IMG/VR virus record: IMGVR_UViG_3300032665_000070
Location: 1-43,517 of that record
Length of the DNA stretch: 43,517 nt
Source of the DNA: a virus
Reading direction: 5' to 3' (one strand)
Shown here: piece by piece, positions 714 to 38,217 of the stretch
How the letters are laid out: the number at the start of each line of letters is the position of its first letter
How positions within the stretch are numbered: position 1 is the first letter of the stretch
Position numbers and translations under genes: made by a program
Notes under the pieces: model-generated
What the model was told of the DNA's origin: nothing
The model's database searches: none
The model's input: only the letters and a program-made list of their open reading frames with translations

Positions 714-1091
714 TCAATCCTCTTCAAGCGTCCAGGGCTCACCGTCCTTGTAACTGTGAAGACAACAGTTGCAATCATATTCTAACCCACCAAAGGTGAA
801 GGTTTGTGAAGGGAACGTCTGTTCAACCATCTCGTCGAGCGTGGGCCTTGGCTCATTCAACTCAACGATGAAGAACCGAGTGGTACACGTACCATCTTTA
901 GCCTGGATGTAGTTGTAGAAACCAAACTGGTTGTCTAAATCAGACACGAGTTCCCAAACGAGTTGATTGTCGAAGCCTCGTTCACCCATGCGGGCTACAT
1001 TGACTGCAGCAATCGCATCGACTTGACTATCAAACGTTCCGTAGTCAATCGCCCTACTCAGGTGATTACCAATGACCATGAACTTACTCAT
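714..1091 (-). CDS. Unrecognised 125-residue protein
   Basis: The start is the ATG at 1091 (MSKFMVIGNH), chosen because a clear GGAGG lies just upstream inside the end of the preceding gene; the longer reading frame overlaps that gene and has no site. The gene follows the 1093-1350 gene with the stop and start almost touching, so translation is probably coupled. The protein is soluble and acidic, with a Cys-Asn-Cys-Cys cluster near the C-terminus (DCNCCLHS). I do not recognise a family. Confidence 0.75.
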   Translation of the reverse strand: MSKFMVIGNHLSRAIDYGTFDSQVDAIAAVNVARMGERGFDNQLVWELVSDLDNQFGFYNYIQAKDGTCTTRFFIVELNEPRPTLDEMVEQTFPSQTFTFGGLEYDCNCCLHSYKDGEPWTLEED

Positions 1092-1092
1092 A

Positions 1093-1350
1093 TTACTTGC
1101 CCTCCTCAAAAGAGTCGATCCATGCAGAGAAAGCGCCAATGGCTTTGCTCGTCCTGTATGAATCAATCTTCTCCAAGATCTCATTGGATACTCCAAGAGC
1201 ACCCGAGACTTGGTCATCAGTGAAGGGAAGGTCATCGATAATAGCAACCTGTGCAGCGAGTTGCTTACCGATCACTTCGAATGCATACAGAATAGTATCC
1301 ATGTCCTCATCGGTGAAGCCAGCGCTGGTTAGCCTGTCAACGTTTAACAT
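1093..1350 (-). CDS. Unrecognised 85-residue helical protein
   Basis: The ATG at 1350 is preferred over an in-frame GTG at 1392 because AGAAAGG lies about 8 nt upstream of it and nothing comparable precedes the GTG. The product is short, acidic and probably all helical, with GFTDEDMDTIL near the N-terminus. No catalytic motif is visible. It is the first gene of a coupled pair with the gene at 714-1091. Confidence 0.7.
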   Translation of the reverse strand: MLNVDRLTSAGFTDEDMDTILYAFEVIGKQLAAQVAIIDDLPFTDDQVSGALGVSNEILEKIDSYRTSKAIGAFSAWIDSFEEGK

Positions 1351-1408
1351 ATAATTGCCTTTCTTGTTTTGTTTTAGATTAATCAATTTCACAATTGTTT
1401 AATCCATC

Positions 1409-1438
1409 GGTAGCCCGATGATGTTCCTTCGGACTACC
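1409..1438 (-). repeat. Intergenic RNA hairpin family, copy 1
   Basis: A 10-bp stem, written on the plus strand as GGTAGCCCGA and TCGGACTACC. The single mismatch on plus becomes G-U on the minus strand, the transcribed strand here. Outer bases TCCA/TGGA extend it. Related stems occur at 1938-1968 and 2871-2904. It sits between the gene ending at 1453 and the gene starting at 1350. Confidence 0.6.
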
Positions 1439-1452
1439 TGTGGATGAATCAA

Positions 1453-1869
1453 TTACTGATACTGAATAGCACCATCCCTGTCTGGATCGTACAGATCAAC
1501 TTGTTGGTTGACTAATAGGTGGTAGAATGAACGGTCAATCCTTGTGGACTGACAAGTATCAAGGTGCTTAACATCAAGGAACTTGTAACTCCTACGTTCT
1601 TCTGCCTTGATAGTGCGGAAGACATGTGTTACTTCCCAGAGGTCATCCTCGGCAACTGTTGTGTCCCAAAAGTGGGGGATGAATGACTTCCTCGTGGGTG
1701 TGGTGTACAGATGATTCCATGTACCACCCTGAGGGTTACCTTCAATCTCTACAACCGCAAGGACATCCCACAGATCAAACACAGCCAAGTGGATGTGACG
1801 ACCAGCTATCGGGGAATCTTCTTCAGTACTCTCGTATTTCCAACAAGCACTGAAGTATGACTTTAACAT
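1453..1869 (-). CDS. Unrecognised 138-residue protein
   Basis: The start at 1869 is preceded by AAGGAG with good spacing. The protein is tryptophan- and aspartate-rich with alternating strands, and ends DPDRDGAIQYQ. No signal peptide, membrane segment or known motif is seen. Its leader carries a small GNRA-type hairpin (1915-1924) and the larger intergenic stem at 1938-1968. Function unknown. Confidence 0.75.
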   Translation of the reverse strand: MLKSYFSACWKYESTEEDSPIAGRHIHLAVFDLWDVLAVVEIEGNPQGGTWNHLYTTPTRKSFIPHFWDTTVAEDDLWEVTHVFRTIKAEERRSYKFLDVKHLDTCQSTRIDRSFYHLLVNQQVDLYDPDRDGAIQYQ

Positions 1870-1914
1870 AACTTACTCCTTTTGTTTGGTTGATACTGCT
1901 TACTTGGTTAATCT

Positions 1915-1924
1915 ATCTCCCGAT
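1915..1924 (-). promoter_or_regulatory. Leader GNRA-tetraloop hairpin, copy 1
   Basis: On the minus strand ATC-GGGA-GAT, 46 nt upstream of the 1869 start. The stem is only 3 bp here, but the loop and flanking TC/GA match three other left-arm leaders (4221-4234, 5558-5571, 5901-5914). Confidence 0.4.
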
Positions 1925-1937
1925 TGTTTAACCCATA

Positions 1938-1968
1938 GATAGCCCGAATCGCGGGGACCCGGACTACC
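1938..1968 (-). repeat. Intergenic RNA hairpin family, copy 2
   Basis: GATAGCCCG pairs with CGGACTACC, with wobble pairs on the minus strand. It is homologous in position and sequence to the stems at 1409-1438 and 2871-2904, and lies in the leader of the 1869 gene. Confidence 0.5.
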
Positions 1969-1988
1969 TAGGATCAATCAAGGGATAT

Positions 1989-2027
1989 GCTCAAGCCCAC
2001 CCAGCGGGGGACTGGGTGAGCCTGAGC
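1989..2027 (-). other. Long stem-loop
   Basis: A 16-nt arm at 1989-2004 and its partner at 2012-2027 match at 14 of 16 positions. Both mismatches become G-U on the minus strand, so the leftward RNA would fold into an unbroken 16-bp stem with a 7-nt loop. It follows the gene ending at 2079. No T-run follows, so it may be a processing or stability element rather than an intrinsic terminator. Confidence 0.6.
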
Positions 2028-2043
2028 AACCCTTAGTTACTGC

Positions 2044-2064
2044 CTGCTAGATAATACCTAGCAG
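2044..2064 (-). other. Perfect 7-bp hairpin after stop codon
   Basis: CTGCTAG and CTAGCAG around a 7-nt loop, 15 nt beyond the stop codon at 2079. Together with the stem at 1989-2027 it forms a double-hairpin 3' end. It lacks a T-run. Confidence 0.5.
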
Positions 2065-2078
2065 TTCCACTGCTTTTG

Positions 2079-2375
2079 TTACTGCACCTTGCGCTTTGAG
2101 ATGCGCACTAAATGCGCTTCTTGACCCATCTTCTCACCGTCGATGATGTCATACTCGATGAATGAGGCGACGTAGTCACCATCTTCATCAAGATCCCACC
2201 CCTTGCTAATGGGCAAGACTTCCTTGCCGGGCCGGGGGGTTGAGTACCACTTCTCCACCGCAATTTGGGCATCCTTCAATTCCTTGAAGAGACCAAACCA
2301 ATGGATGGACAAGATATTGATACCCTGTTCGTGAGCGTGGGCGCTAACCGTCATTTCTACTGCCCATACCTTCAT
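2079..2375 (-). CDS. Unrecognised 98-residue protein
   Basis: The ATG at 2375 (MKVWAVEMTVS) is chosen over the ATG at 2381 because AGGAGG is only one base from the latter and 7 nt from the former. The start also overlaps the stop of the small ORF 2375-2458 as TGATG, a typical coupling arrangement. The product is mixed alpha/beta with an acidic centre (DLDEDGDYVASF). The family is not recognised. Confidence 0.75.
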   Translation of the reverse strand: MKVWAVEMTVSAHAHEQGINILSIHWFGLFKELKDAQIAVEKWYSTPRPGKEVLPISKGWDLDEDGDYVASFIEYDIIDGEKMGQEAHLVRISKRKVQ

Positions 2376-2458
2376 CAGCATTCCTCCTGTTCAATTGTTT
2401 CATCCTCATCAAGCAAGTAATACTCACCACACTTGCATAGCGTTGAGTTATGGTACAT
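2375..2458 (-). CDS. 27-residue zinc-ribbon-like micro-protein
   Basis: A very short ORF fitting exactly between two genes. Its ATG overlaps the upstream stop as TAATG, and its TGA overlaps the next start as TGATG. The peptide reads MYHNSTLCKCGEYYLL and then an acidic tail ending in EEC. CKCGEYY resembles the CSACDGEYYELE stretch encoded at 2918-3097. The double coupling argues that it is translated. It might instead be a translational bridge with no product function. Confidence 0.55.
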   Translation of the reverse strand: MYHNSTLCKCGEYYLLDEDETIEQEEC

Positions 2459-2823
2459 TACTGCTCAGCCTTAGCAACGTAGTTGGGATTCTCCTCAACA
2501 ATTGCTACACGCTTGCTAGCCTTCTTCAGATTACGCTTAGCCTGGCTGGGCAACCCGTTAATATCAATGGGCGTGAGTTCGTAGCGATAGACTTTCCACG
2601 ATTCATAGGCGTTAAAAGTCCTTGGTACAAGAACTAAGCGGAAACCCTCCATCACTCCACCAGTATCCATTGTGTACCACTGGATATCGTGGTGGGCTAG
2701 GGCTTCCTCTCGCTTGACCCAATAAGTCCTGTCACGGTCCTCTAGGTCATTGCACTTAGATACCCTTGTACTAGATCTCGTGCACTCGGTACGCTCAAGC
2801 ATCCAAACAGTGAATGTATTCAC
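2458..2823 (-). CDS. Unrecognised 121-residue basic protein
   Basis: It starts with GTG at 2823, preceded by AAGGAG and a 6-nt spacer. The initiation region is identical over 29 nt to that of the gene starting at 3560. The C-terminus is lysine/arginine-rich (SQAKRNLKKASKRV), suggesting nucleic-acid contact. No recognised domain. Its stop overlaps the start of the micro-ORF at 2458. Confidence 0.75.
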   Translation of the reverse strand: MNTFTVWMLERTECTRSSTRVSKCNDLEDRDRTYWVKREEALAHHDIQWYTMDTGGVMEGFRLVLVPRTFNAYESWKVYRYELTPIDINGLPSQAKRNLKKASKRVAIVEENPNYVAKAEQ

Positions 2824-2839
2824 TAGTAACTCCTTACTT
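2811..2839 (-). repeat. Duplicated translation-initiation region, copy 1
   Basis: 29 nt identical to 3548-3576, covering the ribosome binding site AAGGAG, the spacer and the first codons (GTG AAT ACA TTC). Two unrelated genes therefore share the same initiation cassette. Confidence 0.8.
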
Positions 2840-2870
2840 TAGAGGTTGGTTAGTCCTCGGTTGAACCATA

Positions 2871-2904
2871 GGTGGCACGAACAAATACTCCTGCTCGTAC
2901 CACC
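2871..2904 (-). repeat. Intergenic RNA hairpin family, copy 3
   Basis: GGTGGCACGA pairs with TCGTACCACC, with an outer CCTCGG/CCGAGG pair (2855-2860 and 2903-2908). Compared with copy 1, base pairs change on both sides (A-T to G-C, C-G to A-T), while the same single C/A position is kept as G-U on the minus strand. Confidence 0.6.
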
Positions 2905-2917
2905 GAGGGACAATCGA

Positions 2918-3097
2918 TTACTTACTATCTTTACAGCAGCAAGGTGTGAACTCCCCGCCTTCAAGCTCGTAGTACTCACCATCGCAAGCACTGCAGTAAT
3001 GATCCGCTACAGCTTCGGGGAATGGGTGGAATGGTTCTTCCTGAGCAGTTCCATCAAAGGCATAACCTGAAGCATGGACATCATGCTGGTTGAACTG
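2918..3097 (-). pseudogene. Start-less zinc-ribbon coding segment
   Basis: An open frame of 59 codons ending at TAA (2918-2920), bounded upstream by TAA (3098-3100), with no ATG, GTG, TTG, CTG or ATA/ATC/ATT codon. Its end looks like real protein: HYCSACDGEYYELE, then CCCKDSK. It overlaps the tail of the HTH gene 3007-3261 in the -1 frame. The simplest reading is that the HTH gene once continued into this zinc ribbon and a frameshift (mutation, assembly error or programmed slip) separates them. I see no convincing slippery heptamer. Confidence 0.45.
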
Positions 3098-3261
3098 TTA
3101 AACAATGCGTGAACAGAACTAACTGGCATGTCCAACTCTTCAGCCAATGCCCGGTAATCCATATTGGATTTAGCCAACGCTTGCTTAAGCATCAGCTGGT
3201 ACGTAGCACGCAACTCTGATTCTTTGCGTTCACGTACTGGGTTCTTGGCAGGCTTAGGCAT
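3007..3261 (-). CDS. Small helix-turn-helix protein
   Basis: 84 residues from the ATG at 3261, five bases after the stop of the upstream gene. The ribosome site is weak, so coupling is likely. A lysine/arginine-rich N-terminus (MPKPAKNPVRERKESE) precedes DYRALAEELDMPVSSVHALF (about 44-63), which fits the Cro/XRE-type helix-turn-helix pattern. It is probably a DNA-binding regulator. The last 18 residues look less convincing than the -1 frame, which encodes a zinc ribbon, so the annotated end may be a frameshift product. Confidence 0.65.
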   Translation of the reverse strand: MPKPAKNPVRERKESELRATYQLMLKQALAKSNMDYRALAEELDMPVSSVHALFNSSTSMMSMLQVMPLMELLRKNHSTHSPKL

Positions 3262-3266
3262 ACGTA

Positions 3267-3560
3267 CTACTTGAAACGGTGAGCACCGCCGTGGCCGGAG
3301 ACAAGAACGCAATCCCCACGGTAACTGCAGGACTTATCTGCTGCAAGGCGGGCAAACAGCAAATCGTTCCTACTGTAGAACACAACTACACTCTCAAGCA
3401 ATTCCCTCTCCACTTGCAAGCATTGCCAGAGCTGGCGGGCATCGTACATCTTCTTGTGATACTGCTCGTCAAGCTCACGTTGCTTCTGCTCTTCAAACTT
3501 CAGCAAATCAATGCGTGCTTTGATCTTCTTGAGTTGAGCGGTCGTCATGAATGTATTCAC
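3267..3560 (-). CDS. Coiled-coil protein of unknown function
   Basis: 97 residues from GTG at 3560, or about 93 from an internal ATG (MTTAQLKK). The GTG shares its AAGGAG and first codons with the gene at 2823. Residues 5-60 are rich in Lys, Glu and Leu in heptad-like spacing (KKIKARIDLLKFEEQKQRELDEQ), suggesting a coiled coil. The C-terminus has two cysteines and ends GHGGAHRFK. No known family. Confidence 0.7.
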   Translation of the reverse strand: MNTFMTTAQLKKIKARIDLLKFEEQKQRELDEQYHKKMYDARQLWQCLQVERELLESVVVFYSRNDLLFARLAADKSCSYRGDCVLVSGHGGAHRFK

Positions 3561-6147: not shown

Positions 6148-6381
6148 CAATGGCCTAAGAACCATAAAGAAGTTCATAACCTTTTTGCATCCTTGTTCAT
6201 TTGCTCAATCTAAGCTTTATACTAGGATGCTGAGTTTTGCCATTTCCAGAACTACTGGGTTGTAGAGGAATCGACGGAGAGGGGCCTAAACGGGGCTATG
6301 GGGCTCTCTAATGGCTTTCTAATGGGTTGCTCTATGGGACCCCTTTTACAGCGTAAAAAACGCCTTTAAAAAATAGCGCGG

Positions 6382-6398
6382 GGGCTCTAAGCCCTTTT
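6382..6398 (+). terminator. Weak intrinsic terminator
   Basis: GGGCT, CTA loop, AGCCC, then TTTT. The stem is only 5 bp, so efficiency is doubtful. Confidence 0.4.
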
Positions 6399-6431
6399 GC
6401 AATACTAAGTGCACGTAAGTATGATGCATAC

Positions 6432-6474
6432 GAAAAGAGAAAACCCCTCCTCAGGGGTTACCTAAAGAGGGGTT
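6432..6474 (-). terminator. Terminator with competing stem (attenuator-like)
   Basis: On the minus strand AACCCCT-gagg-AGGGGTT (6442-6459) is a perfect 7-bp stem followed by a pyrimidine run ending in TTTT (6432-6441). A second upstream arm AACCCCTC (6467-6474) could pair with the same right arm, giving mutually exclusive folds. Confidence 0.5.
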
Positions 6475-6480
6475 CAATCT

Positions 6481-6540
6481 TTAATCATCGGCACCGCAGC
6501 AGATGTCATCAGAGTTTTTCTGATACTTCCACTCTAGCAT
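6481..6540 (-). CDS. Possible 19-residue (or slightly longer) leader peptide
   Basis: Minus-strand ATG at 6540 to TAA at 6481, reading MLEWKYQKNSDDICCGADD. It can be extended to a TTG at 6558 (adding LYLHCR). No ribosome site is seen. It ends just before the attenuator-like hairpin, as leader peptides do, which is its main support. Confidence 0.25.
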   Translation of the reverse strand: MLEWKYQKNSDDICCGADD

Positions 6541-6611
6541 CCGGCAATGTAAATACAAGCACTTTTTGAAGTAGTTGTCAGATAAGAGTCAAACTGCTGA
6601 ATGGGTCGTCG

Positions 6612-6914
6612 ATGCATACATTTTATTGGGTACTGTTCTACTCATTCATTGGTTGTCTATGCATGATTGCACGAGATATATTAAATACTATTTTAACCGA
6701 TGCCATTGCCAATGGCCACCACAAGCTGGCTGGCAACATGGATGGCCTCTCAGACGTGGTTAATATCGTCTTAGCGGCGTTCTCTGGCGTTAACCTTATC
6801 CACCTGGGGTGGATGGGTTGGCTAGGCATTCTACCAATTGGTATCGTAGGGAAGATTACGACTGAAAAGGCCACAAAGTGGTCCCACAAAAATATAAAGG
6901 CAGAAACAGAATGA
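6612..6914 (+). CDS. Two-helix membrane protein
   Basis: 100 residues. Hydrophobic helices at about 4-22 and 47-79 separated by a polar loop, with a lysine-rich C-terminus. It could be holin-like, but there is no lysis partner next to it. No ribosome site precedes the ATG, so the start is uncertain; an overlapping frame from TTG 6575 also encodes a hydrophobic segment but is short. Its stop overlaps the next start as ATGA. Confidence 0.6.
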   Translation: MHTFYWVLFYSFIGCLCMIARDILNTILTDAIANGHHKLAGNMDGLSDVVNIVLAAFSGVNLIHLGWMGWLGILPIGIVGKITTEKATKWSHKNIKAETE

Positions 6915-13366: not shown

Positions 13367-14077
13367 ATGAACTACGAAAATATTGAATTAGAAGCTAAGA
13401 CAGCTGCTGCTGATACTCGCTGGTTTAACGGCACCTCTGAAAGCATCCTCATACGCCTAGACAGACTACAGGACATCCTTGACAGAACAAGAGTCGCGGC
13501 GAGCAACCCCAACACAACTGACCGAGAGCTCGAGCGTTATGCAGGAGTATTGGCAGAGCTTGGTGCAGAAAAAGAACAGCTTGAGAAGCTTGCCTCCGAG
13601 TATGTTGATTTTGATGCTGAAGACTACCTCAATAGTTTGCCTGGTGGAACAATCGCTAAAGAGTACCGCGTCAGCAGTGCTGGTACGAGTGATCTCGGTG
13701 CTGATGATGGCAGCTTACTTTATCGCACGGCTGCATCCATCGAAAATGAATTCGAAGATGCTGACTGGATTAATTTTGTAACTGCGGGTGCTGAAGTCTG
13801 GATCGAAGACCAAAACAATCGCTTGCTGAAGAGCCAATCGAATACTCGTGAAGCAGCTGTGTTCTACGTCGAGAAGAAGACTCTGCCTATCCTTGATTCA
13901 GCAAAGCGTGCATCCATCATTGATAACTTTGTAGACAATGTAGAAATCTGTCGCCGTGCTAAGAATGATGGCAATGAATTCCGTAGTATCAAGAGTGCCG
14001 GTAAGAATAAGCTTGCTGCATCTTTTGTCCAGGATGCGATCGATGATTCATTCGGGAACGACTTGAACTGGCTATAA
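13367..14077 (+). CDS. Helical 236-residue protein
   Basis: An AAGGAA-type site precedes ATG 13367 at some distance. Residues 25-80 form a probable coiled coil (LDRLQDILDRTRVAAS ... AEKEQLEKLASEY). Two Ala-rich motifs (KTAAADTR, YRTAASIENEF) resemble motifs elsewhere in the block. It ends SFGNDLNWL. Unrecognised; a structural role is plausible. Confidence 0.75.
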   Translation: MNYENIELEAKTAAADTRWFNGTSESILIRLDRLQDILDRTRVAASNPNTTDRELERYAGVLAELGAEKEQLEKLASEYVDFDAEDYLNSLPGGTIAKEYRVSSAGTSDLGADDGSLLYRTAASIENEFEDADWINFVTAGAEVWIEDQNNRLLKSQSNTREAAVFYVEKKTLPILDSAKRASIIDNFVDNVEICRRAKNDGNEFRSIKSAGKNKLAASFVQDAIDDSFGNDLNWL

Positions 14078-23183: not shown

Positions 23184-23255
23184 TGCTCGGTAACTCAGAG
23201 GCAGAGTACTCGCCTGTTAAGCGAAGTGTCGTAGGTTCGATCCCTACCCGAGCAG
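23184..23255 (+). tRNA. tRNA-Asn (GTT)
   Basis: Acceptor TGCTCGG/CCGAGCA, D stem ACTC/GAGT, anticodon loop CTGTTAA (GTT), T stem GTAGG/CCTAC with TTCGATC, discriminator G. The lowest anticodon-stem pair (C-A) is mismatched. No CCA. Confidence 0.88.
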
Positions 23256-23338
23256 CGGAGCATAGGTCCAGGTTCAATTCCTGGTCGCCCAACAACGATG
23301 GGTGATGGTGTAACGTTAGCACAATGTTCATGAATTTA
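23256..23338 (+). tRNA. Circularly permuted tRNA-like element (3' half before 5' half)
   Basis: The 3' half comes first: AGCAT (23259-23263), AGGT, T arm CCAGG-TTCAATT-CCTGG (23268-23284), TCGCCCA (23285-23291). After seven bases the 5' half follows: TGGGTGA (23299-23305), TG, D arm GTGT/GCAC (23308-23322), A, ATGTT (23324-23328), C. Acceptor halves pair 7/7 (one G-U), and anticodon-stem halves ATGTT/AGCAT pair 5/5 (one G-U). The element fills exactly the gap between tRNA-Asn and tRNA-Ser. The anticodon loop is broken and no anticodon can be read. It may be a recombination relic or a processed two-piece RNA. Confidence 0.6.
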
Positions 23339-23423
23339 GGATCGGTGGCTGAGTGGCCGAAAGCAACGGTTTGCTAAACCGTCGTACCGCGAGGTACCGG
23401 AGGTTCGAATCCTCCTCGGTCCG
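23339..23423 (+). tRNA. tRNA-Ser (GCT)
   Basis: Acceptor GGATCGG/TCGGTCC (two wobble pairs), anticodon stem ACGGT/ACCGT with loop TTGCTAA (GCT), long variable arm with GTACC/GGTAC pairing, T stem GGAGG/CCTCC with TTCGAAT, discriminator G. Confidence 0.92.
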
Positions 23424-23450
23424 CTGTATACTAGACATAAAGGAAGTATT

Positions 23451-23603
23451 ATGGATAAGAAAGAAATAAAGTTCAATATTCCTCTTCGTTTGTACCAGAG
23501 AATCAATCGTGTCTCTGAAACCTTGGGCTATACTGATGTAGAGAAGTTTATTAGTTATTATATGAGTCTTAGCTTCCAGGCATTTGATACGCCTGAAGAG
23601 TAG
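23451..23603 (+). CDS. Small ribbon-helix-helix-like protein
   Basis: 50 residues with AAAGGAAG 6 nt before ATG 23451. MDKKEIKFNIPLRLYQRINRV fits a beta strand followed by a helix, and GYTDVEKFISYYMSLSF the second helix, as in Arc/CopG/MetJ DNA-binding dimers. It sits between tRNA-Ser and tRNA-Gln, so it may regulate the tRNA unit. It ends six bases before tRNA-Gln. Confidence 0.7.
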   Translation: MDKKEIKFNIPLRLYQRINRVSETLGYTDVEKFISYYMSLSFQAFDTPEE

Positions 23604-23608
23604 CGCAA

Positions 23609-23679
23609 TGAGGGATCGTCCAATGGCAGGACAACAGATTTTGGTTCTGTGAATCGGGGTTCGAGTCCCTGTCCCTCAG
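23609..23679 (+). tRNA. tRNA-Gln (TTG)
   Basis: Acceptor TGAGGGA/TCCCTCA, D stem GTCC/GGAC, anticodon stem ACAGA/TCTGT with loop TTTTGGT (TTG), T stem CGGGG/CCCTG (one wobble) with TTCGAGT, discriminator G. Confidence 0.92.
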
Positions 23680-23684
23680 CAAAT

Positions 23685-23765: not shown

Positions 23766-23943
23766 CCAGTGGCAAGGAAAGTAAACGGAGAATGGGCAAC
23801 AAGGGTTTGGCAGACGTGCTGGTAATTCCTTTGTGTATACCTCACCGGCCATTAAAACGAAGTAGCGACCAGTAGTAAACTTAAGCTAGGTTGGTTAGAA
23901 AATAATAAGGAAAGCATTTTTAAGTATTTAAATTTATAAATAA
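23766..23943 (+). other. Spacer inside the tRNA cluster
   Basis: No complete tRNA or gene is visible. AAGGAA/TTCCTT could pair across about 50 nt (near 23774-23830). A D-arm-like AGCTAGGTTGGTTAGA lies near 23885-23900, possibly a decayed tRNA. The end is AT-rich. Confidence 0.4.
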
Positions 23944-24018
23944 GCGGGGGGACGCAGACGGTGACGCGGGAAAGCTTATATCTTTCTGATTGAGTGGGTT
24001 CAACTCCCACCCCCCGTA
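23944..24018 (+). tRNA. Probable divergent tRNA-Ile (TAT)
   Basis: Acceptor GCGGGGG/CCCCCGT, 3-bp D stem CGC/GCG, anticodon stem GAAAG/CTTTC with loop CTTATAT (TAT), 7-nt variable loop, T stem GTGGG/CCCAC with TTCAACT, discriminator A. Position 8 is G instead of U and the D stem is short, so scanners may score it poorly. It would read AUA. Confidence 0.55.
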
Positions 24019-24035
24019 CAATGATCTTCGACTAC

Positions 24036-24063
24036 GTATGTTCGATTCGTACTGCCCGGACCA
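24036..24063 (+). tRNA. tRNA 3'-end remnant with CCA
   Basis: T arm GTATG-TTCGATT-CGTAC, then TGCCCGG, A, CCA. No matching 5' acceptor (CCGGGCA) was found nearby, so only the 3' third remains. Confidence 0.45.
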
Positions 24064-33654: not shown

Positions 33655-36600
33655 ATGGCATCAAAAGACTGGAGTGCTTCAACGGAATTAAACCGTATGA
33701 AGACAGCTGGTATCACGCTACCAAAGAACCCTATCGCTGGACGTGTTGCCGCACGAGACATGCTTGACAGGGCTAAGACCAGTGGATCAATGCTTAATGA
33801 AATTGGTCCAATGGCTACAGCTTTGGGTGGTCCGCCAGAAGGACGCCAACGTCTAAACAACTTAAAGCAAGGTTTTAATCTAGAGGGTGTTGCTAACACT
33901 CCTAATAGAAGATTAGCTGCAGCGACTGGATCAGATGCCCAATGGGCGCTTCCTAAGCTGCATGATCCATTTGAATACTGGCGTGAGCGTTGCGTTTTAC
34001 CGGGGGAAGAAATTACTCTCCTAGATGGTCCAAAAAAGATTGAAGACGTTACCTACGGTGATCGAGCTCTTACCCACATGGGTAGATATCGTCGTGTACT
34101 TGATCTTGGCAACCAAGAGTATGAGGGTAAAGTTTATCAACTGAAGCCTCGTTACCGTACTGCTATCAACGTTACCGCTGACCACCCCATTTGGACACTT
34201 CGTGAAGATGGTGGACAATTTATTCATGTCCAGGATTTAAAGCCAAACGACAAAATTCTTTTCCCAGTAGACCGCCGTATCGAAGATAAAGAATTCATTA
34301 ATCTTACAGAAATAATTGATCATTCTGATTTGGTTATCGAGAATGGTTATTTCACTCGCAAGTTAAGCGAAAAGTATGGTGCAGCACCAAAGCGTCTTCG
34401 TGGGAAACCAGGACGACCAATTAATTCATTGCCAGTAGAGATTGAATTAACTGATGATTTCCTATGGTTTCTTGGTCTATATATTGCTGAAGGATCTACT
34501 GGTGGACCGGACAATAAGACAATTCACATTGCTTTGTCCACAAAAGAAACAGATTTAATAAATAGAACAGTAAATGTCCTTGAAAAACTCACTGGCAAAG
34601 TAGCAGATATTCGTGATCATACAAAATATGGTGATAATTCTGTAATTGTTGAATTAGCGAATCTTCCATTGTCTCGTGCTCTACCAATTCTTTGTGGTAA
34701 GGGTTCATATAACAAGCATTTCCCAGAGTGGGCACAATTTTTGCCAGAAGAGAAGCAGAAAGCCCTTCTTCGTGGGTACTTCGATGGAGACGGCTGCTAC
34801 CAGCCAGATATCTCTTCTTGTTTTACTTCTTCTAACCATTTGCGTGATCAAATTCTTCAAATGATGGCCAGAAATGGTTTCTTCCCTTCTGTGTATCACA
34901 GAACAACTAAGTCATTCTCAAAGAAGATTGACGGCAAGAATATAGTACTCAGCCGAACAGAAAATAGTGCATTCCTTAACTGGATGGACATCCACATTTT
35001 TGATGAGATCGATGATGATGTTATTGTCAAGCGTGGACGCAAATACCCAATCGAACACGTTGCGGAAGGTGTATGGATTCCAGTTGAAGAAGTAATCGAA
35101 TCGGATTACAAAGGTACTATTTATAGTCTGACCATTACAGAAGACCACTCATACTGTGTTTCTGGTATTGCCACGAGAAACACATGGTGGTTCAACATGG
35201 AGGACCCTGATGAACAAACTCGTAAGATTCGTGACTGGGCTAGATTACTCTATTCTACTCACCACCTTGTACCTAGTTTAATTGATATCTATACTAGATT
35301 CCCTCTCCTAGATATCGAATTGGTTCACCCAGATAAGCGGATCGCTGATTTCTATAATGAACTATTCTTTGATAGCTTAGACTACCAAGAATTTCTTTTT
35401 GACCTTGGCCGTGAGCACTGGACTGTTGGTGAAGTATTCGCTATGGGTTCTTGGCATGATGGTATTGGTGCTTGGGAAGAAGATGAGATCATCAACCCCA
35501 ATGATGTTATCGTCGCTAAAAATCGTGCTCTCAGAACTTATCAATATCATGTTAAGGTCCCTGAAGAAATTAAGCGCCTTATCGAACGTCGTGATCCTCC
35601 GCAAGAGTATGCAATGCTTATGCAACTCTACCCAGATGTTGTAGCCTGGGCACGACAAGATAAAGAGATTCCTGTTTCAGATGTAATTATGAAGCAGATT
35701 AAATTTAAGTGCGTTGTTGGTTCTACTGATATAATGACCCCAACTGGTCCTGTCCAGGCAAGAGACCTTGCTGTTGGCGATGAAGTGCTCGCATGGGATG
35801 AGACTACGAATAAGATTGTTCGCAGTACCGTTAGTCACCAAGGTATTAATGAACCAGAACCAATCTATTGGATCACAACTAAGCAAGGTCGAAAGATTGG
35901 TGTTAACTCGGAGCACCCATTCCTTACTGATAATGGCTGGGTAGAAGCTGCCGATCTTTCTATCGGAACAAATTTGTTGGTCGGCCATTCGTATAATCCT
36001 GAGATGATTAGCAATGTATCGACCGATGAAGCAAGATTCTTTGGTTTAATGGTTGGTGATGGTAGCTATGGCCATAAAACGATTATGTTCCACAATGAAG
36101 ACAAAGAAATACTAAATTGGATGAATGAATTCGTTGCCGGATATAGTTGCAAACTATCGCAAGCCGGTGACCGTGAGATATCATTCGTTATTTCACAGGG
36201 TGAACAAACAAAAAATCCTAATTTAATCAAGAAATTAATCGTAGATGCTGGTATCAAGGGGCAAACTACTTATACAAAGAGAGTCCCGTCTTGTATTTGG
36301 GATGGTGGGCCTGAAGTTTGGGGAGCTTTTCTTGCTGGTTATCTAGATACTGATGGTCATGTTGACTCAAATGGCATGGTTGTATGGACTAGTATGAACC
36401 GTTCACTGCTTGAAGATTGTCAAACATTGTTGTCATTCCTCGGAGTAGAATCAAGAATCTATGACGTGCCTAAATATGACTATGCACCGGATTCTGGTTA
36501 TGGTCACCGTCTAATTGTTGGCAAGCAAGAGGCTAAGTCTTTGCTATCTCATTATGTGCAACCGCTTTGTTCAAGAAAGCAAGTTCCTAACACTACGCCT

Positions 36601-38217
36601 ATTAGAAATACACGCCCATCTAAATTCCCATATGATCAAATTGTAAAAATTGAAATGGGTATTGATGAAGAAACAATGGCCATTGGAATTGATGAGCACC
36701 ATACCCACATTACTGCTGGCCTTGTAACGCACAATACCAACCCGTGGAGCGAGCATGGTACTCCTATCCTTCTTCGTGCTTTTCGTATGCTTATGCTTGA
36801 GGAGTCCCTTAACGCCGCGCAAGATGCTATTGCCGACCGTCTGTATTCTCCTCTTATTCTGGCTACTCTGGGTCTTCCTGACGTAGACCAAGACGGTCCA
36901 TGGATCCCAGACGCCATGGAACTTCAAAGCCTGAGAGATGACCTCTCCATGGCTATCAACTCTGACTTCCGCTTGATGACCTACCACCACGGTTTGCAGA
37001 TCCAAAACGCTTTTGGTCGTGAAAGTATGCCACGACTAGACCAGGATTTCCTCAGAGTTCAGACTAATGTCATGGGTGTATTCGGCATTGGTTCAGACCT
37101 CATTCAGGGCGGTCAAGGCGGCACTTACGCCAGTGGTGCTCTCAACCGTGAACTTATTACTCAAATGCTTAGCACCTACCAGCATAAGATTGAGAAGTTT
37201 ATTCGTAGCCGTATGGAACCAGTCGCAGAAAGACAAGGTCACTATGAAATGCGTAACGTGGGCGGTCAGATGGTTCCTGTTATGGAAACTGTCCTCATGG
37301 TTGATGAAGAGACTGGTGCTGAATATGTTGAAGAACGACCCAAACTAGCAATCCCCGAAGTTAGATTCCGTAGTATGAACCTACGTGATGAGACCGTAGA
37401 ACGTGGTTTCTTGCAGCAATTGAGCGCAGCTGGGTTCCCAATCTCTCTTAGCACTCTTGCTGTCAATATACCAATTGACTTCGACGATGAAGTTTCAGCA
37501 CGAAAAGAAGAGAAGATTAAGACAGTCGTCGCTGAGCAACAATTTAAGAAGGAACTGTTCGACCGCTTGTACACGTTACAGCTTCCAATACCACCAGAAT
37601 ATGTGCAGGAATACCAGGCCTACCTTGCGATGCTTGAAGACCCATCGCTTGGTGCACAGCTTGCTCCAGGAGCTATGGCTGGCCTTGTAACGCCTCCAAG
37701 TGCTCCTAACATGACTGGCAATACCGCAGGCAATAGTGATGCCGCAGCTGGTGCTCAAGTGTACCCTAGCATCAATCAAGAAGCTCAACAGCGTCAACGC
37801 CCAGAAGAAAGCTATGAGCAGCGCAAAAATCAGCCTAAGCCTTCTAAAAAGGGTCCAAAGAATGGTCCTAAGAAGAAGACTGCATCTGTGTCCGGCTGGG
37901 ATGAAGACGATGAGTTCGATGAGTTCACAGGCCGAGTTGAATACGGTGATCGTATGAAGTTTGCAGTGCCTTTTGAACAGAAGAAGCGTAAGCGTATGAA
38001 GCTCGCTTCTGGTATGAAGATTATTGTTGATGATAGCTATGAGAAGTTTGATGAAGATCAATTCAAACAAAATCTTGCATCATTGATCGATGATCCAATG
38101 ATCACAGAACCAACAGACTTGAATGAACACAGTAGTGGTGAAGGCGGCATGGACCAGCCTGCACGAAAGCAAATTGATCCTACTGTAGAAGAACCTTTCC
38201 CAGCAAACGATTTATAA
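33655..38217 (+). CDS. Portal protein interrupted by two inteins
   Basis: 1520 codons encode a portal of 781 residues after removal of inteins at residues 113-509 and 686-1027. Extein features: WWFNMEDPDEQTRKIRDW, a helical body with HLVPSLIDIYTRFPLLD, RAFRMLMLEESLNAAQDAIADRLYSP, IQGGQGGTYASGAL, and a long acidic/basic C-terminus. The portal is the dodecameric gate for DNA packaging. The position before protease, scaffold and capsid genes supports the call. The C-terminal KTASVSGWDEDDEF and KLASGMKIIVDDSY carry the recurrent AS motif. A T-tailed hairpin follows. Confidence 0.88.
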   Translation: MASKDWSASTELNRMKTAGITLPKNPIAGRVAARDMLDRAKTSGSMLNEIGPMATALGGPPEGRQRLNNLKQGFNLEGVANTPNRRLAAATGSDAQWALPKLHDPFEYWRERCVLPGEEITLLDGPKKIEDVTYGDRALTHMGRYRRVLDLGNQEYEGKVYQLKPRYRTAINVTADHPIWTLREDGGQFIHVQDLKPNDKILFPVDRRIEDKEFINLTEIIDHSDLVIENGYFTRKLSEKYGAAPKRLRGKPGRPINSLPVEIELTDDFLWFLGLYIAEGSTGGPDNKTIHIALSTKETDLINRTVNVLEKLTGKVADIRDHTKYGDNSVIVELANLPLSRALPILCGKGSYNKHFPEWAQFLPEEKQKALLRGYFDGDGCYQPDISSCFTSSNHLRDQILQMMARNGFFPSVYHRTTKSFSKKIDGKNIVLSRTENSAFLNWMDIHIFDEIDDDVIVKRGRKYPIEHVAEGVWIPVEEVIESDYKGTIYSLTITEDHSYCVSGIATRNTWWFNMEDPDEQTRKIRDWARLLYSTHHLVPSLIDIYTRFPLLDIELVHPDKRIADFYNELFFDSLDYQEFLFDLGREHWTVGEVFAMGSWHDGIGAWEEDEIINPNDVIVAKNRALRTYQYHVKVPEEIKRLIERRDPPQEYAMLMQLYPDVVAWARQDKEIPVSDVIMKQIKFKCVVGSTDIMTPTGPVQARDLAVGDEVLAWDETTNKIVRSTVSHQGINEPEPIYWITTKQGRKIGVNSEHPFLTDNGWVEAADLSIGTNLLVGHSYNPEMISNVSTDEARFFGLMVGDGSYGHKTIMFHNEDKEILNWMNEFVAGYSCKLSQAGDREISFVISQGEQTKNPNLIKKLIVDAGIKGQTTYTKRVPSCIWDGGPEVWGAFLAGYLDTDGHVDSNGMVVWTSMNRSLLEDCQTLLSFLGVESRIYDVPKYDYAPDSGYGHRLIVGKQEAKSLLSHYVQPLCSRKQVPNTTPIRNTRPSKFPYDQIVKIEMGIDEETMAIGIDEHHTHITAGLVTHNTNPWSEHGTPILLRAFRMLMLEESLNAAQDAIADRLYSPLILATLGLPDVDQDGPWIPDAMELQSLRDDLSMAINSDFRLMTYHHGLQIQNAFGRESMPRLDQDFLRVQTNVMGVFGIGSDLIQGGQGGTYASGALNRELITQMLSTYQHKIEKFIRSRMEPVAERQGHYEMRNVGGQMVPVMETVLMVDEETGAEYVEERPKLAIPEVRFRSMNLRDETVERGFLQQLSAAGFPISLSTLAVNIPIDFDDEVSARKEEKIKTVVAEQQFKKELFDRLYTLQLPIPPEYVQEYQAYLAMLEDPSLGAQLAPGAMAGLVTPPSAPNMTGNTAGNSDAAAGAQVYPSINQEAQQRQRPEESYEQRKNQPKPSKKGPKNGPKKKTASVSGWDEDDEFDEFTGRVEYGDRMKFAVPFEQKKRKRMKLASGMKIIVDDSYEKFDEDQFKQNLASLIDDPMITEPTDLNEHSSGEGGMDQPARKQIDPTVEEPFPANDL
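33991..35181 (+). mobile_element. Portal intein 1 with two LAGLIDADG motifs
   Basis: 397 residues, Cys1 (CVLPGEEITLL) to ...GIATRN, then Thr+1. Block B VTADHPIW is intact. LAGLIDADG motifs: WFLGLYIAEGS and LLRGYFDGDGC. The penultimate residue is Arg instead of the usual His, which may slow C-terminal cleavage; an upstream His (EDHSYCV) may compensate. Confidence 0.92.
35710..36735 (+). mobile_element. Portal intein 2 with two LAGLIDADG motifs
   Basis: 342 residues, Cys1 (CVVGSTDIMTPTGPV) to ...LVTHN, then Thr+1. Block B is NSEH instead of TxxH. LAGLIDADG motifs: RFFGLMVGDGS and FLAGYLDTDGH. It is unrelated in insertion site to intein 1 and has the canonical His-Asn end. Confidence 0.92.

Follow-up and report, generated by a model that had tools for sequence, protein, structure and literature searches.

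A circularly permuted tRNA-like element between tRNA-Asn and tRNA-Ser of a phage tRNA array, most likely a recombination relic

The gap between the tRNA-Asn and tRNA-Ser genes of a phage tRNA array consists of 83 bases, positions 23256-23338 of the window (the whole stretch of DNA analysed, IMG/VR record IMGVR_UViG_3300032665_000070, here G000, with 43,517 bases, classed as linear and probably a fragment), and these bases form a tRNA 3' half, a 7-nt linker and a tRNA 5' half, in that order. The permuted order is real and unusual, and the reading that we favour, with reasonable confidence, is that the element is a non-coding relic of recombination in a tRNA array, the source tRNA presumably having been duplicated and being probably Gln-like. 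The features of the element and of its surroundings are as follows.

23184..23255, + strand: intact tRNA-Asn(GUU), called by ARAGORN and Rfam, ending at 23255/23256
23256..23291, + strand: tRNA 3' half, from the sequence and an orphan T-arm scan; it starts with CGG, followed by the anticodon-stem 3' strand AGCAT (23259-23263) and the variable AGGT
23268-23284, + strand: T arm of the 3' half, CCAGGTTCAATTCCTGG (CCAGG-TTCAATT-CCTGG)
23285-23291, + strand: acceptor 3' strand of the 3' half, TCGCCCA
23292..23298, + strand: linker ACAACGA, discriminator A and CA..., then spacer
23299..23338, + strand: tRNA 5' half, from the sequence, with acceptor strand TGGGTGA, TG, D arm, A26, ATGTT and tail
23308-23322, + strand: D arm of the 5' half, GTGTAACGTTAGCAC (GTGT-AACGTTA-GCAC), without G19
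23324-23328, + strand: anticodon-stem 5' strand ATGTT, preceded by A26
after 23328, to 23338, + strand: tail of the 5' half, CATGAATTTA, made up of CATGAA (anticodon-loop remnant) and TTTA
23339..23424, + strand: intact tRNA-Ser(GCU), called by ARAGORN and Rfam
23451..23603, + strand: 50-aa ORF, conserved beside the array in comparison with relatives
23609..23680, + strand: intact tRNA-Gln(UUG) of the same array
23856..23939, + strand: open stretch with what is left of the C-terminus of a homing endonuclease of the Endonuclease VII type (..LGWLENNKESIFKYL..)
23944..24019, + strand: tRNA-Ile(UAU), the displacing copy, of the same type as the Ile of L118/L124
24020..24063, + strand: 3' part left over from the older tRNA-Ile that was displaced (T arm GTATGTTCGATTCGTAC, TGCCCGGACCA)

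The swapped halves had been described in an earlier note, and the order, the coordinates and the 7-nt linker are borne out by the sequence. After rotation the acceptor stem forms with 7/7 pairs and the anticodon stem with 5/5, each including one G-U pair, exactly as had been claimed, and the T stem (5/5 pairs) and the D stem (4/4 pairs) are likewise complete. The fit of the element between the ends of Asn and Ser is also exact, with intact tRNAs called on both sides by ARAGORN and Rfam, and neither program made a call between them when run on the array. The length of the linker resembles that of ordinary tRNA spacers in the same phage family. When positions 23257-23338 are folded without rotation, the permuted cloverleaf emerges as the minimum free energy structure and as the centroid; it has -24.1 kcal/mol and accounts for 39% of the ensemble, with the closing stem lengthened to 6 bp and a z of -1.8 relative to shuffled sequences.

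In a pairing control the halves of 107 well-formed tRNAs of the phage family were combined in every way. The 12/12 acceptor and anticodon-stem pairs of the element were reached by 51 of 1,112 same-isotype ordered half pairs and by none of the 10,230 mixed-isotype pairs, and both halves of the element thus go back to a single tRNA or to near-identical copies; chance pairing of two unrelated halves is ruled out by the mixed-isotype control. A strict scan for the anatomy of the element matched nothing in 100 windows simulated with a Markov model; in loci totalling 1.46 Mb it returned only the window element, Microbacterium phage Magritte (L158) and the viral contig L156. The family isotype nearest to the 5' half is Gln, a weak assignment with a best local score of 13 over 25 nt, and tRNA-Gln(UUG) is already intact in the array. 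The element can be described as two half-tRNA scars of one tRNA type, lying back to back.

A search with the portal protein gave 63 related loci, apparently from freshwater metagenomes as judged by the sample identifiers, and the tRNA clusters of these records were collected and read. The window itself encodes the portal protein in a 1520-aa ORF (33655-38217) with two apparent intein-like insertions. Asn and Ser stand only 2-4 nt from each other in 13 records, which represent 6 distinct arrays, and no further feature lies in the gap; the search for the same permuted order in related phages, proposed in the earlier note, found none; a strict scan of the family loci gave no other family copy. 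The closest syntenic relative, G015, has an upstream ORF with 51% identity, tRNA-Asn and the 50-aa ORF with 92% identity, and here the 50-aa ORF directly follows Asn, with neither the element nor Ser. The tRNA-Asn of the window is 73/73 identical to that of G029 (L074/L122), the only other phage found with an identical Asn gene, and there too Asn is followed by a broken tRNA, a Gln 5' half of 36 nt cut in the anticodon loop (TGGGAGAT...TTTGA). The 5' half in the window (TGGGTGAT...CATGAA) has the same length and is identical to the Gln half of G029 at 21/36 positions. The portal proteins of the two phages are about 85% identical and the sequences just upstream of Asn are unrelated; given the complete identity of the Asn genes, Asn seems to have moved alone.

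Broken tRNAs are frequent in the family, where many are interrupted by an inserted complete tRNA of the same isotype, often together with an endonuclease gene, and the arrays read as follows.

L108: Gln 5' remnant, HNH ORF, new Gln, Gln 3' remnant
L099: Gln cassette of the L108 type that has lost the ORF
L106: Asn interrupted by a new Asn
L117: Leu 5' half, new Leu, HNH ORF, T arm of the Leu 3' half
L131/L134: EndoVII ORF, new Asn, then the 3' half of the old Asn
L118/L124: EndoVII fragment, new Ile, then the 3' part of the old Ile
L110, L115, L122, L125 and L136/L138: further arrays with the broken-tRNA pattern

Pfam supports HNH in L108 and L117, and Endonuclease VII in L131 and L118. The 5' remnants of the family stop near tRNA nucleotides 23-39 and the 3' remnants start near nucleotides 26-56, placing the breaks in the region from the D stem to the variable/T region. 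Cassettes of a tRNA and an HNH or EndoVII gene inside resident tRNAs of the same isotype would, on the evidence of these arrays, constitute a recurrent system of tRNA replacement in this phage family. The window holds a second scar 0.6 kb downstream of the element, at 23856-24063, where an EndoVII remnant is followed by a complete Ile and then by the 3' end of an older Ile. The remnant shows 52% identity to L131 over 23 aa, and the same domain (Pfam PF02945) precedes the displacing Ile in L118; the site is a scar of the cassette-insertion kind found in the family. The EndoVII remnant adjoins Ile and not the permuted element.

The proposed origin of the element is as follows. One tRNA, probably Gln-like, would have been present as two adjacent copies. 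These would have been cut through both strands in the anticodon region, as could be expected from the tRNA-targeting homing endonucleases of the family, and the outer half of each copy would have been lost. What was left would be the 3' half of copy 1, the natural spacer and the 5' half of copy 2, joined to Asn at the left and to Ser at the right. We infer the tandem duplication, the identity of the cutting nuclease and the sequence of events; a Gln-like tandem copy cut in this way would give exactly the order of the element. In published work, T6 SegB cleaves within tRNA genes and causes a tRNA-containing segment to be amplified in tandem (PMC13096335), T4 SegB acts on the tRNA region (PMC2988022), and duplication with loss of the outer segments has been hypothesised for permuted tmRNA and rRNA and is one scenario for permuted tRNA genes (PMC3978253). 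The element should be co-transcribed with the array and trimmed away as spacer during processing of Asn and Ser, and it would not be expected to take part in decoding.

A recombination relic had been offered in the earlier note as the fallback reading, and it fits the tRNA halves of the family that are broken around the anticodon arm. On both sides of the element such a half lies beside an intact tRNA, and both G19 and U33 have been lost. Other observations speak against a relic. A tandem-copy intermediate of this tRNA was not found in the relatives, and the isotypes do not match, the Gln-like element lying between Asn and Ser, whereas the other scars of the family match the adjacent intact tRNA. 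The isotype call is weak and the identity to the G029 half is modest. Finally, no stem is broken despite the loss of two loop signatures, a combination that may point to a structural constraint or to a very recent event.

The permuted order is not new in phages. A permuted tRNA in a phage was thought in the earlier note to be novel, and the open-licence papers searched yielded none, but the architecture already occurs in phage Y RNAs. YrlA RNA holds a tRNA-like domain, according to the account of Chen 2014 given in PMC7790460, and the Rfam YrlA model (RF02553) has the same permuted architecture. Three other viral contigs came up when the permuted order was sought with a looser pattern scan, and BLAST added Magritte; the three modules of the scan, considered as copies of the element, proved to be Y-RNA-like. 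The YrlA scores are 49.7 bits for L156, 38-45.6 for L157, 27.8 for L155 and 36.6/24.6 for L158, all under the gathering score of 69 bits. TROVE/Ro proteins are encoded by G053 (L157) and by Magritte (L158), and flanking motifs are repeated in L155 and L157; for these reasons we read the permuted modules of L155-L158 as Y RNAs.

In L157 (IMGVR_UViG_3300020020_000028) positions 776-3070 contain some ten repeats of an RNA unit flanked by GGGTCG...TTATC...CTTATCC motifs, and permuted tRNA-like modules are enclosed by several of these, for instance a Leu-like one at 2036-2180; the record also has a TROVE gene, and the array corresponds to phage Y RNAs that fall below the Rfam gathering score. On the minus strand of L155 (IMGVR_UViG_3300010413_002075), at about 6200-6900, four units surround tRNA-like sequences, one of them permuted, with AAGCTTACATAC-like and ACAGCTT-like flanks; the YrlA match is weak and no TROVE gene was found in the 62.8 kb record. 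The module of L156 is located at 13478-13579 on the minus strand of a tRNA-rich viral contig that also carries cow-rumen-3 RNA. Magritte (OR553905) has at least three unannotated Y-RNA-like units at 2960-3375, upstream of an annotated Ro-like protein, and its record annotates a tRNA-Arg (3239-3315) within one of them.

The element could alternatively be a selected, structured tRNA mimic, a YrlA-type tRNA-like module without the Ro-binding stem that is released by processing of the flanking tRNAs and acts as a scaffold or as a decoy, e.g. for host anticodon nucleases. We regard this as unlikely, but it deserves consideration because the stems are intact, the fit between the mature ends is exact and the permuted cloverleaf is the minimum free energy structure. 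The order is that of YrlA, namely T arm, capped acceptor helix, D arm and closing stem, and the best match of the unrotated element in the phage database is an unannotated Y RNA of Magritte (75.8% over 66 nt, E 5e-3). The modules in this order in other phages match the YrlA model, but the window gave no YrlA match (Rfam, E up to 5, and a second search with E up to 1), even though scores of up to 27.9 bits are reached at junctions inside intact tRNA arrays. TROVE was not found in G000 or in 29 relatives, some of about 130 kb, and a Ro-binding stem does not flank the module, the intact Asn and Ser abutting it directly without GGTCG/TTATC flanks. In addition, the loss of G19 should weaken the contact between the D and T loops, and the phage Y RNAs examined keep GG.

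That the element is a functional circularly permuted tRNA gene is quite improbable. In such a gene the acceptor end would be generated by RNase P together with 3' trimming between the two halves, and the anticodon-loop ends by processing of the flanking tRNAs; an RNA ligase of the host would then seal the latter. All 12 critical pairs form, and since the element fills the space between Asn and Ser, processing of the flanks could set its ends. The D-loop GG is however present in 117/117 parsable family tRNAs and U33 in 115/117, and the element has a D loop, AACGTTA, without G19 and no proper anticodon loop, the raw joined loop being about 13 nt and lacking U33. The trailer after A73 is CA instead of CCA (ACA with A73 included), and an intact Gln already stands in the array. 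The rotated sequence was accepted by ARAGORN, a check suggested in the earlier note, but only with trimmed loops, and the isotypes were then inconsistent. No second copy of the element came out of pattern scans, exact or degenerate, over viral and genome contigs, and BLAST of the rotated sequence in phages returned T-arm or chance matches alone. No RtcB turned up in 22 family records, and the RNA ligase domain PF09414 gave one match, below the cut-off, across the same records; as some of these may be incomplete, the missing ligase is weak evidence. The interpretation as a permuted tRNA holds for the geometry of one permuted tRNA in the gap, and a functional gene is unsupported because the element has lost G19 and U33 and is absent from the relatives, and neither RtcB nor a ligase above the cut-off was found in the 22 records.

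A misjoin of short tRNA repeats during metagenome assembly is very improbable: the site is covered by a single contig and the other contig from this phage (L002/L003) has its start inside the array, at about window position 23882, but both halves of the element occur once in the window and are not copies of assembled repeats, and similar broken halves are present in many independent contigs of the family. The start of L002 (IMGVR_UViG_3300013094_000268) within the array perhaps reflects strain variation there.

As a recombination relic the element shows a plausible route in a phage from a normal to a permuted tRNA, by duplication, nuclease cuts around the anticodon arm and loss of the outer halves, a path that has been proposed for permuted tRNA, tmRNA and rRNA genes and is rarely seen. 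The comparison also reveals a phage family where cassettes of tRNA and endonuclease genes appear to enter and replace tRNA genes, with halves remaining, and matches to permuted tRNAs in phages need to be checked for Y RNAs first.

Two-piece tmRNA encoded by permuted ssrA shares with the element a permuted tRNA domain with a short intervening segment, but the break of the element is in the anticodon loop and there is no tag reading frame; Rfam run over the array at a low threshold gave no tmRNA match to the element. The YrlA module (RF02553) has the arm order, the closing stem and the capped acceptor helix in common with the element, which differs in lacking a Ro-binding stem and any YrlA score; a TROVE gene was not found in the family records searched. 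SegB of T4 and T6 is likewise a nuclease of tRNA genes, and it drives replacement and tandem amplification of tRNA segments (PMC2988022, PMC13096335). In contrast to SegB, the predicted nucleases of the present family belong to the HNH and EndoVII types, and its scars consist of whole tRNAs inserted into tRNAs. Compared with the permuted tRNA genes of algae and archaea, the element has no BHB motif by eye, and its anticodon and D loops are degenerate. A splicing endonuclease is not expected in a phage. Both nevertheless consist of a 3' half, a short linker and a 5' half, rotation restores the acceptor and anticodon stems in both, and the algal and archaeal genes, too, have been proposed to descend from duplicated copies that lost their outer halves (Soma 2007; Chan 2011; PMC3978253).
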